Of a DNA stretch of 9,753 nucleotides, positions 2,424 through 6,196 are shown piece by piece. The position numbers were made by a program, and so were the translations under genes. Position 1 is the stretch's first letter, and each line of letters opens with the position of its first letter. The stretch is from Saprospiraceae bacterium (lineage in GTDB: Bacteria > Bacteroidota > Bacteroidia > Bacteroidales > JAIPBB01): contig JAIPBB010000206.1 of assembly GCA_021739805.1 (NCBI GenBank), positions 1-9,753 on the forward strand, written 5' to 3'. Under the pieces are notes generated by a model. That model did no database searches, was not told the DNA's origin, and worked only from the letters and a program-made list of their open reading frames with translations.

Positions 2424-3551
2424 ATGAAAAGAGTATTCATAATAATTCTTATACTTCTCTCGTTTCGTGGCTTTTCACAAGTTAAATCAAACTATCAAAC
2501 CGCAACAAGTTTAGGTTTAAACCTAGGTGCAAATTATTCCCAGCTTGAAATTGATACAATTTATAATTTAGCAACAATGCTACCTTTTATGGGCTTAAAT
2601 CTTAATTATGAAGCATCGAAGAAATTTAATATAATAGTCGGAGGTCAATTATCATACAGAGGTTCAAATACAATTAGCCCGGTTTACAAATACCGTAATG
2701 AATATGTTGATGTTCAACTGTTAGGTCAATACAAACTTGCTGACAACCTGGCTCTTGAATTTGGAATTCAAAGGTCAACACTTTTATCATCATATAAAAA
2801 AAATCCAACATCAGCCTACGCATCAGAATTGACAACAGGCTTTTCATCACATAATGAATTTATTACAGGATTAGAAATTAAATTTCATAAAAATGTTTAT
2901 TTATCAGGACGATATACTCTCCCGACAAAGGAGCTTGAGTATTCAAATCTTCAGTTTTTAGTTAATATTCGCCTTCGTCCATGGTTAAAAGAAAATAAAC
3001 TTAAAATATATTATGATTTAAAAAGTGCAGCTAAGGAACCATTATTAGTTGAAAAACTTGTTTTACATCGAAAAGACTTGATTGAATTTCCTATGGAAAT
3101 TCTTGAAATGAAAAATCTTCAGGAACTGGTTTTGGATGCCAATAAAATAATCAGTATTCCCCCAGAAATTGACGAACTAATAAATCTTACTTATTTATCA
3201 GTAAAATTTAATGATTTAGATAGTATTCCAAAAGAAATCGGCAACCTTAAAAACCTTAAAGAACTTCACCTCGAAAACAATGATTTAAAGAAAATCCCGC
3301 CTGAAATAGGTAATCTGGAAAATCTGGAATTTCTTTATATCGAAAAAAATGATTTAAACTATCTGCCACCTGAAATAGGCAAACTTGAGAATCTTAAAGA
3401 ACTTAATATTGCAAAAAGTGGAGTAGCTCTAACAATTCCAATTGAGTATAAAAACCTAAAACAACTCGATGTTTTAACAATAGATTATTCTCTTATAACA
3501 ACTTTTAATCTTAAATCGATAAGTTCGAATTTGAGAATTATTGTGAAGTAA
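2424..3551 (+). CDS. Outer-membrane beta-barrel protein fused to C-terminal leucine-rich repeats
   Basis: I start at ATG 2424, giving 375 residues, because it opens directly onto a signal peptide (MKRVFIIILILLSFRGFSQ, cut after about residue 19). The upstream TTG at 2391 would add 11 residues ahead of it. Residues about 20-190 alternate polar and hydrophobic strands (GLNLGANY, IIVGGQLSYRG, YVDVQLLGQYKL, VYLSGRYTL, FLVNIRLRPW) like the small PorT/OmpA-like barrels of Bacteroidota. Residues about 206-375 hold five or six leucine-rich repeats of roughly 23 residues, with the pattern LxxLxLxxNxLxxIPxEIGxLxN. The fold implies an outer-membrane protein displaying a binding domain on one face; the ligand is unknown. 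No catalytic motif is seen. The gene stands alone and is convergent with the DUF2147 gene. The repeat consensus is sure, the barrel assignment less so. Confidence 0.87.
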   Translation: MKRVFIIILILLSFRGFSQVKSNYQTATSLGLNLGANYSQLEIDTIYNLATMLPFMGLNLNYEASKKFNIIVGGQLSYRGSNTISPVYKYRNEYVDVQLLGQYKLADNLALEFGIQRSTLLSSYKKNPTSAYASELTTGFSSHNEFITGLEIKFHKNVYLSGRYTLPTKELEYSNLQFLVNIRLRPWLKENKLKIYYDLKSAAKEPLLVEKLVLHRKDLIEFPMEILEMKNLQELVLDANKIISIPPEIDELINLTYLSVKFNDLDSIPKEIGNLKNLKELHLENNDLKKIPPEIGNLENLEFLYIEKNDLNYLPPEIGKLENLKELNIAKSGVALTIPIEYKNLKQLDVLTIDYSLITTFNLKSISSNLRIIVK

Positions 3552-3552
3552 A

Positions 3553-3790
3553 GAAGTCCGAAGCACGAAGTCGGAAGACAGAAGACAGAAGTCGGAAGAC
3601 AGAAGACAGAAGTCGGAAGTTCAAAGCTTTGTGTTTACTGGTTTCTCGTTACTGGTTTCTCGTTACTGGTTTCATTTCGACTCCGCTCAATGACCCAAAA
3701 ATGGACACTGAGCGGAGTCGAAGTGCAGGTTTCAAGTTTAAGGTTTAAGGTTTGACAAAAGCAAATACCGAAAACCGCTTACCGAATACC
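3553..3790. repeat. Composite heptamer-register tandem repeat block
   Basis: The 238 bases between two convergent stop codons divide into 34 successive 7-mers in one phase. At 3553-3622 there are ten GAAGnnn units, with order TCG, ACA, ACA giving a 21-base higher-order repeat. At 3637-3671 ACTGGTT alternates with TCTCGTT (14-base unit, 2.5 copies). At 3672-3727 eight heptads carry a long hairpin. At 3728-3755 there are four GGTTTAA-like units. At 3763-3790 there are four nnnnACC units (AAATACC, GAAAACC, GCTTACC, GAATACC). The block starts one base after the stop at 3551 and ends four bases before the stop codon of the opposing gene. Heptanucleotide short tandem repeats are known from heterocystous cyanobacteria; I infer a similar slippage-type or dispersed element here. 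Confidence 0.85.
3673..3725. repeat. Long GC-rich inverted repeat, possible bidirectional terminator
   Basis: TTCGACTCCGCTCA (3676-3689) is the exact reverse complement of TGAGCGGAGTCGAA (3709-3722). Three more pairs, one of them G-U, extend the stem to 17, around a 19-base loop. It sits between convergent genes, so it could stop transcription from both sides, but no T-tract follows the stem on either strand. It lies inside the heptamer block. Confidence 0.7.
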
Positions 3791-3794
3791 GACA

Positions 3795-4277
3795 TTACTT
3801 CTTACTAACTTTCCTCGTCCAGGTAGTTGTTCTTCCTATTAACGAAAAGCCAAGATATCCTCTTAAATCTAATTTATTTTTACTCGAATTAAGCCAAGCT
3901 TTACATGAATAAGTATTTCCACTTTCAGGGTCATAAATATCTGCATCTACCCATTCATCATCACCATCAAATTTAAATCCCTGGATAATTTCTAATCCAA
4001 CAATTGGTCTTGAACGAAGTTTTGAGTCAGGATTTTCACGGTCATGCTTTTCCTTACCTTCTTCTTTGTCACCCTTTTCATAAACTTTATCCTTTATCCA
4101 AATAATCTTCCCGTAATACTTATTTCCTTTTTTATAGATTTGTATTATGCTCTCATTCTTATCGGTCCACCATTTCCCGACAATATCATCAGCTTTGAAA
4201 GTTTGACAAAATAAAATATTAGAACTAAAAACAAATAAACTCAACATAAAAACTGCAAGCAATCCGGTCTTTCTCAT
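3795..4277 (-). CDS. DUF2147 family secreted protein
   Basis: I start at 4277, giving 160 residues with a clean signal peptide (MRKTGLLAVFMLSLFVFSSN, cut near residue 25). The upstream in-frame ATG at 4349 would prefix an unlikely 24-residue hydrophobic stretch and reach into the opposing promoter. The mature part matches DUF2147 throughout: DIVGKWWTD (31-39), the NPD..LR.RPIVGLEII segment (82-98), W109, IYDPESGNTY (114-123), LRGYLGFSLIGRT (138-150) and TWTR (152-155). The family is a small beta-rich periplasmic or secreted fold of unknown function, common in Bacteroidota and Proteobacteria. Cys24 near the cleavage site is not in a proper lipobox, so I do not call a lipoprotein. It is divergent from the potassium channel across 100 bases. 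Confidence 0.92.
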   Translation of the reverse strand: MRKTGLLAVFMLSLFVFSSNILFCQTFKADDIVGKWWTDKNESIIQIYKKGNKYYGKIIWIKDKVYEKGDKEEGKEKHDRENPDSKLRSRPIVGLEIIQGFKFDGDDEWVDADIYDPESGNTYSCKAWLNSSKNKLDLRGYLGFSLIGRTTTWTRKVSKK

Positions 4278-5954: not shown

Positions 5955-6043
5955 TACAAATATTTAGTCCCTACGGGACAATCCCTTTAGGGATATAATA
6001 TTTGTAAAAACGATAAATCAAAAGCAATAAGTCCCGTAGGGAC
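5955..6043. repeat. Nested palindromic intergenic repeat between convergent genes
   Basis: TACAAATATT (5955-5964) and AATATTTGTA (5997-6006) are exact reverse complements. They enclose two small stems, GTCCC-TAC-GGGAC (5967-5979) and ATCCCT-TT-AGGGAT (5981-5994). A further GTCCCGTAGGGAC at 6031-6043 is the exact reverse complement of the first stem sequence. The style is that of dispersed extragenic palindromes in Bacteroidota, some of which are tied to RAYT-type transposases. It may act as a transcription barrier between the channel and ktr units, but no clear T-tract supports a standard terminator. Bases 6044-6196 show only a minor GGTA-CGC-TACC palindrome at 6152-6162. Confidence 0.75.
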
Positions 6044-6196
6044 GTGATATTATTAAACATTTTATTGGTGATTTACAATTCATAACCAAAATATTAAATC
6101 TTCACAAAATCCAATAATATCAAGCCTTGCCAGCATTATCAAGCTCCATATGGTACGCTACCCACCTACAAAATCAGAATTTTAAGACTAATATAT

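Follow-up and report, generated by a model that had tools for sequence, protein, structure and literature searches.

The window (the whole stretch of 9,753 nucleotides that was analysed) contains a block of repeats at 3553-3790, made up of four tandem heptamer stretches and one hairpin. This block wholly occupies the gap (3552-3794) between the stop codons of two convergent genes, a plus-strand leucine-rich repeat (LRR) gene and a DUF2147 gene on the opposite strand, and a single base separates the first array, F1, from the stop codon of the upstream gene. The closest named relatives of the ion channel encoded in the window come from Bacteroidetes and Bacteroidales genomes, which marks the window as Bacteroidota DNA. 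The features are as follows.

2424..3551, plus strand: upstream gene, outer-membrane beta-barrel with leucine-rich repeats (PF23598, PF13505)
3553..3622, plus strand: array F1, ten GAAGnnn heptads (GAAGTCG, GAAGACA and variants), recognised by its own lag-7 test and by arrays in relatives
3623..3634, no strand: junction lacking a significant period
about 3635..3674, plus strand: array F2, GGTTTCT/CGTTACT (written ACTGGTT/TCTCGTT in an earlier note on this DNA) with a 14-base higher unit; putative left piece of a GGTTnnn array
3668..3674, plus strand: GGTTTCA unit left of the palindrome, whose last two bases double as the foot of the palindrome stem
3673..3692, plus strand: palindrome half-element 1, stem CAT, core TTCGACTCCGCTCA (3676-3689), stem ATG
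3706..3725, minus strand: palindrome half-element 2, inverted, reading CAC, TGAGCGGAGTCGAA (3709-3722), GTG on the plus strand
3727..3753, plus strand: array F3, GGTTTCA/AGTTTAA/GGTTTAA/GGTTTGA; putative right piece of the GGTTnnn array
3728..3734, plus strand: GGTTTCA unit on the right-hand side of the palindrome, at a distance of 60 bases (4 mod 7) from its left-hand counterpart
about 3764..3792, no strand: array F4, AATACCG-like heptads, reading GGTATTC/GGTAAGC/GGTTTTC/GGTATTT on the minus strand
3795..4274, minus strand: downstream convergent gene, DUF2147 protein (PF09917, E 1.3e-37)

The seven-base period of the block is real. Identity at lag 7 over 3553-3790 was 0.576, compared to 0.254 (sd 0.029) in 1000 dinucleotide shuffles, none of which reached the observed value, and the signal was echoed at lags 14, 21 and 28. 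Each of the four tandem stretches was significant alone by the same measure (p about 0.001), and the 34 heptads listed in the earlier note, comprising ten GAAGnnn units and the ACTGGTT/TCTCGTT, GGTTTAA-like and nnnnACC units, are present as described. The period sits in these four stretches; it is absent from the hairpin (3672-3727; 0.265, p 0.45) and from the junction ahead of the ACTGGTT units (3620-3637; 0.364, p 0.36).

It had further been claimed that the different motif families keep one unbroken heptamer phase, even across a hairpin of 56 bases, or 8 x 7. That 238 bases give 34 heptamers is arithmetic and true of any stretch of this length, and because each of the seven phases is an equally valid way to cut a tandem repeat, a common frame can always be chosen for two unrelated tandem families. 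Phase is testable solely where two families share letters; F2 and F3 qualify, since both consist of GGTT-like units with three variable bases. Six hand-picked tetramers were compared across the hairpin. GGTT lies at residue 3 to its left (3640, 3654, 3668) and at residue 0 to its right (3728, 3742, 3749), GAAG lies at residue 0 in ten units and at residue 6 at 3720 inside the hairpin, TTAC passes from residues 5, 5 and 5 to 2, and GTTT, TTTC and AAGT likewise switch residue. When the profiles of F2 and F3 are compared, their similarity is 4.28 of 7 at a shift of 4 and falls to 1.12 in the genomic register, and F1-F2 and F3-F4 are also off their best register (ranks 5 and 2 of 7). The figure of 56 bases depends on where the hairpin is cut, and the paired element itself, 3673-3725, is 53 bases long, or 4 mod 7, as is the distance between the two GGTTTCA units. 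We conclude that the common phase arises from the way the block was cut, and that the hairpin is a separate element which breaks the register of the surrounding array. A frame picked by eye can thus produce a phase that is absent from the DNA, and the letters common to two families are the test.

Register was near chance in other loci as well. Of the seven possible registers, the one present in the genome scored best for 7 of 44 pairs of neighbouring heptamer arrays, three of the pairs being from the window (6.3 expected), and for 8 of 50 pairs (7.1 expected) of a second set, drawn from 264 loci and 2.9 million bases, which excludes the window and loci L245-L421 and overlaps largely with the 44. 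Similar arrays (score 4.5 or more) were in register in none of 8 cases at 61-300 bases and in 1 of 2 at 7-60 bases. Of five pairs with at most 6 bases between them, three had the best register, with 0.7 expected; these are too few to judge and may include pieces of one array. The core-to-core lengths of eight palindromes outside the window, one of which (L111) is the shortest of three nested readings, left residues of 3, 0, 6, 1, 6, 4, 0 and 0 mod 7, and that of the window palindrome left 5; three zeros among eight exceed one in seven but establish no rule.

These results make it very improbable that one process, adding DNA in 7-base steps, made all the families and the hairpin and thereby gave them a common phase, as the earlier note supposed. 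Such a process would fit the period of 7 in all four tandem stretches, the equal residue of the GAAG and right-hand GGTT units in the frame used by that note, and the three closely spaced pairs and three palindrome lengths divisible by 7 just described. However, letters common to both sides of the hairpin differ in residue, none of the three neighbour pairs in the window is in its best register, the hairpin carries no lag-7 signal, and in other loci neighbouring arrays are in phase about as often as chance predicts and palindrome lengths are mixed mod 7. Motif families out of phase at other sites are an outcome that the earlier note had itself named as refuting its view.

An orthologous gap was not found: of 326 relatives 80 loci were kept, in which the best ion channel identity was 71%, and 393 genomes of the order yielded nothing closer; ion channel relatives of 83-85% identity lie on metagenome contigs. 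At a tblastn threshold of E 1e-8, the LRR, DUF2147, TrkH, exchanger and T9SS-tail proteins had no match in the loci searched, and the methyltransferase was found in 17 loci. Viral contigs contained neither an exact 20-mer of F1 nor a 25-mer of F2, and Rfam at gathering scores gave no match anywhere in the window.

Heptads of the same kinds were found in related genomes, where the earlier note had suggested looking for them. Four GAAG in a row at spacing 7 gave 196 matches in 15 of 30 genomes chosen by hand from the 80 loci, 103 of them in genome G001, compared to 15 matches at spacing 8 (6 of 30 genomes) and 15 at spacing 6 (9 of 30 genomes), overlapping matches within one array being counted repeatedly. 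The favoured GAAG spacing is clearly 7. The spacing-7 pattern was present in 28 of 148 sampled genomes of the phylum, a sample that includes the centre genome G001, and the ACTGGTT family, within 3 mismatches, occurred in 5 of the 30 genomes and in none of the 30 with the reversed control. At one locus, L240, ACTGGTT-type units pass into GGTTTCG/AGTTTCG (GGTTACT, GGTTTCG, AGTTTCG) with no palindrome between them.

Tandem Repeats Finder, whose counts include coding repeats, returned multiples of 7 for 69 of 227 arrays in the 80 loci (period 7, 19 arrays; 14, 29; 21, 20; 42, 1), together with 32 arrays of period 12 alone and 22 of period 15; the corresponding fractions were 15 of 55 in 400 kb of genome G002 and 11 of 29 in 200 kb of G004. 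Most heptad arrays lay outside ORFs (27 of 142 were inside), and they were rarer in divergent gaps, with 11 of 98 compared to a background of 52 of 191 (p 0.0015). In this survey the arrays were deduplicated by exact sequence alone, many loci had been chosen for holding GAAG arrays, and two arrays, both counted as convergent, were the window's own; background gaps came from G002, G004 and, for the palindrome comparison below, G235, by a simple ORF rule.

In the STRR heptanucleotide repeats of heterocystous cyanobacteria, seven-base units are gained and lost. The comparison with these arrays made in the earlier note is apt, 7 being favoured for GAAG (196 matches versus 15 and 15), and the block has the characters of heptanucleotide simple-sequence (STRR/LSSR-type) repeats: a unit length of 7 beyond chance, an intergenic position and dispersal in related genomes. 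The note's statement that the composite has no named equivalent is too strong, as mixed heptamer arrays in intergenic regions of Bacteroidetes have been published (MacGregor 2015, PMC4679880). That paper describes TAACTGA and mixed heptamer direct repeats in Beggiatoaceae, Cyanobacteria and Bacteroidetes, and reports that indels between two Cyanothece strains occur mostly in 7-base steps. Like the block, its repeats are intergenic 7-base units with other heptamers mixed in (in some Bacteroidetes and Microcystis), and some Microcystis sets lie between stop codons, as the block does. They differ in their units, which in the block are GAAGnnn, GGTTnnn and AATACCG, and in the main case described, which lies just ahead of start codons; TAACTGA, in any rotation, is absent among the 34 heptads of the block. 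Many bacterial genomes are known to favour heptamers, a preference for which slippage at the polymerase has been put forward (Mrazek 2007, as quoted in both PMC4679880 and PMC4692102). The GGGAATC and GGGGA(C/T)T repeats of Xanthomonas and Nostoc are, in the parts of PMC4692102 used here, mostly intergenic and variable in length among related genomes; like those of the block, they are heterogeneous heptads with conserved and variable positions, whereas they are G-rich and studied as quadruplex formers and the arrays of the block have no such G runs. Outside these sources, the literature searched held no further account of heptamer arrays, or of the palindrome family of the window, in Bacteroidetes. 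The block thus adds Bacteroidota units, and for one motif a spacing count that favours 7 over 6 and 8, to a little-studied class of bacterial repeat.

In the P6b heptads of the Nostoc tRNA-Leu intron, units are gained and lost and two unit classes pair into a stem (PMC4476775, cited in part). By analogy, the heptad arrays might matter as inverted arrays that fold back into RNA or DNA stems. Among 109 heptad arrays in the survey, 24 had an inverted partner within 120 bases that exceeded all 20 shuffles, about 5 being expected; the p of 3e-10 assumes independent arrays, whereas the 24 include several cases in which both members of a pair were counted. Clear fold-backs include GAAGnnn-AGATTTTA-CTTC elements in genome G001. 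In the block, unlike the P6b heptads, folding of F1-F2 does not surpass that of shuffled sequences (z 1.15), and that of F3-F4 does so only weakly (z -1.13, matched by 22 of 200 shuffles). F1 and F2 have no partner, as 19 of 20 and 20 of 20 shuffles, respectively, reach theirs, and F3 and F4 scored too low to enter the partner test. We consider this role unlikely for the block, and fold-back of F1 and F2 in particular was rejected.

By eye, nine G001 loci (L143, L145, L146, L147, L151, L152, L153, L155 and L157) show a GAAGnnn array, a short A/T-rich loop and a CTTC array, both arrays on one strand and some of the elements reversed. In genome G029, L209 10425-12921 contains several GTGTTCG / AACACAA heptad arrays in inverted orientation, which alternate with GCTGGAAGTTAGAA arrays over 2.5 kb.

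A protein or RNA that recognises a four-base anchor at 7-base intervals could also bind the arrays, in which GAAG or GGTT is kept while three positions vary and whose unit vocabulary recurs across genomes. However, the constancy of GAAG is partly selected, because it was fixed by the search pattern, and duplication of variant units would look alike. We consider this reading unlikely and give it slightly less credit than a fold-back role.

The palindrome is the more interesting part of the block. The hairpin folds at -33.1 kcal/mol (z -8.35) and consists of two inverted copies of TTCGACTCCGCTCA, at 3676-3689 and 3709-3722, each in a short stem; the core of the family to which they belong is TTCGACTNCGCTCA. 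The full palindrome with exact arms was found in just 1 of 198 genomes of the order, and later searches were therefore made by half-site. The 15-mer TTTCGACTCCGCTCA was present in 30 of 395 genomes of the phylum, compared to 2 for the reversed control. TTCGACTNCGCTCA matched in 51 of 148 sampled genomes, at least five times in 22 of them and up to 192 times in one; single matches are partly chance, because the reversed control also gives one match apiece in 10 of the 148. In all ten genomes selected for having the palindrome, 19 to 67 half-sites were counted per genome, with reversed controls at 0. GAAG arrays occurred in 8 of the 22 genomes with at least five matches and in 20 of the 126 others (p 0.036, counted by hand).

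The stem varies and still pairs. In 47 distinct instances, which include that of the window, leave out viral contigs and contain some related copies within one genome, the outward flanks pair over a mean of 3.36 bases, compared to 1.08 (sd 0.15) when flanks are re-dealt. Stem positions 2 and 3 are each paired in 42 of 47 instances, with about 16 and 17 expected, and 13 different three-base stems occur. Constancy of the core is no evidence by itself, because the core was fixed by the search; stem positions 2 and further are free evidence, because the first stem base was prescribed in a search that supplied part of the instances. With 165 instances, 115 of them from viral contigs that include chance matches and were kept out of the 47, stem pairing was 1.69 at offset 0, compared to 0.64 shuffled, and none was seen at offsets 1 and 2. 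The stem thus changes in a compensatory manner, while the loop that it encloses is nearly invariant.

Short, dispersed and many to a genome, the palindrome resembles the REP and BIME elements, GTAG- or CGTC-tagged palindromes that likewise occur singly or as inverted pairs (PMC3733652, cited in part), and CGTC repeats have been reported in Bacteroidetes in the same paper. Unlike these, the window copy has neither GTAG nor CGTC at its feet, and the foot in the family is often followed by TGACA: this string is the commonest (8) among the 20 commonest five-base strings after the stem on the 3' side, which account for 33 of 37 instances and include neither GTAG nor CGTC. Y1 genes are present in 8 of 10 palindrome-bearing genomes, but, unlike REP elements, the family mostly does not flank them: 1 of 27 Y1 (RAYT) transposase loci had a half-site, ~160 bases from the gene, and density alone gives about 0.8 (by hand). 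A RAYT link of the palindrome is not supported. Neither Rfam nor the literature searched gave a name for the family; a 12-mer of the palindrome turns up in two papers, both apparently on other subjects.

We tentatively suggest that the hairpin may be a copy of an undescribed, Bacteroidota-wide element, with a 14-base near-invariant loop (TTCGACTNCGCTCA) on a freely varying paired stem, present singly or as inverted pairs and mostly at the 3' ends of genes. If this is true, a conserved loop on a drifting stem is the trace expected of a protein that reads the loop on single-stranded DNA or RNA. In any case, a common palindrome family with compensatory stem changes, nameless in Rfam and the literature searched, is brought to attention. 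Members at window 3673-3725, L113-L141 and L392-L421 were seen as single copies or inverted pairs, often with TGACA next.

Palindromes were commoner in convergent gaps (14 of 45, compared to a background of 32 of 261; p 0.003) and rarer in divergent gaps (3 of 45 versus 71 of 261; p 0.002), the 45 being what remained of 58 loci once those inside ORFs (9) or at the edge of a contig (4) had been removed. This enrichment and the strength of the stem raise the possibility that the hairpin came first and has a function, as a 3'-end signal that serves both convergent genes in either direction, and that the heptads grew on its two sides. Against it, a scan of 3400-4000 that requires a loop of 3-8 found 0 terminator-like sites (0.4 in shuffles), no T run follows the stem on either strand, and the GGTTnnn unit on both sides favours a split array. 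We regard this as possible though doubtful. The hairpin does not have the form of an intrinsic terminator, a GC-rich stem with a T run.

The block is a composite of known repeat kinds in a convergent gap. Our preferred reading, to which we give a probability of about 0.75, is that the 3'-to-3' gap between two convergent Bacteroidota genes has been filled by independent repeats. The repeats themselves are established: three or four heptanucleotide arrays, with the units GAAGnnn, GGTTnnn (split into two pieces) and AATACCG (GGTnnnn when read from the opposite strand), and a single palindrome that belongs to a dispersed family. In favour of independent repeats we count that the period is confined to the arrays, that the block is the entire convergent gap, that the L240 array runs through without a palindrome, that few palindromes elsewhere have heptads, and that divergent gaps contain fewer arrays and fewer palindromes than the background. 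With one detector for both, heptads were found beside palindromes in 2 of 30 loci and in 0 of 30 at the control place; this slight excess counts against it, as does a short heptad run near a palindrome in L124, visible by eye and missed by the detector. A further set gave 2 of 30, both entries being one place of genome G430.

The split of the GGTTnnn array is supported by joining its pieces. Out of 14 joins of the left piece (end 3674) to the right, the best starts at 3728, with 7 of 7 lag-7 matches, and the next best (5 of 7) starts at 3735, in a register identical to that of 3728; this second join yields eight consecutive GGTTnnn-like units. The units through which F2 and F3 are linked are short, and the link is to that extent a probable one. 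A target-site duplication was considered for the GGTTTCA pair and set aside, since the pair is indistinguishable from array units.

Because no orthologous gap was found, we infer both slippage and insertion. Each array would gain and lose entire units through strand slippage as the DNA is replicated, and point changes would collect at a few variable positions of the unit. The palindrome would have come to sit within the GGTTnnn array, between two GGTTTCA units, displacing the right piece by 4 bases. The gap presumably tolerates repeats because no promoter is needed there, and the stem may additionally protect or end both transcripts.

Other intergenic stretches of the window also carry palindromes. 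At 5955-6050, the inverted repeats GTCCCTACGGGAC / GTCCCGTAGGGAC and ATCCCTTTAGGGAT form another palindromic repeat 3' of the methyltransferase gene, and several small palindromes (TAGCCATAGGTGAAACCTGTGGCTA, AATCCTAACAGGATT and AACCCCTTCAGGGTT) were read by eye at 2060-2200.
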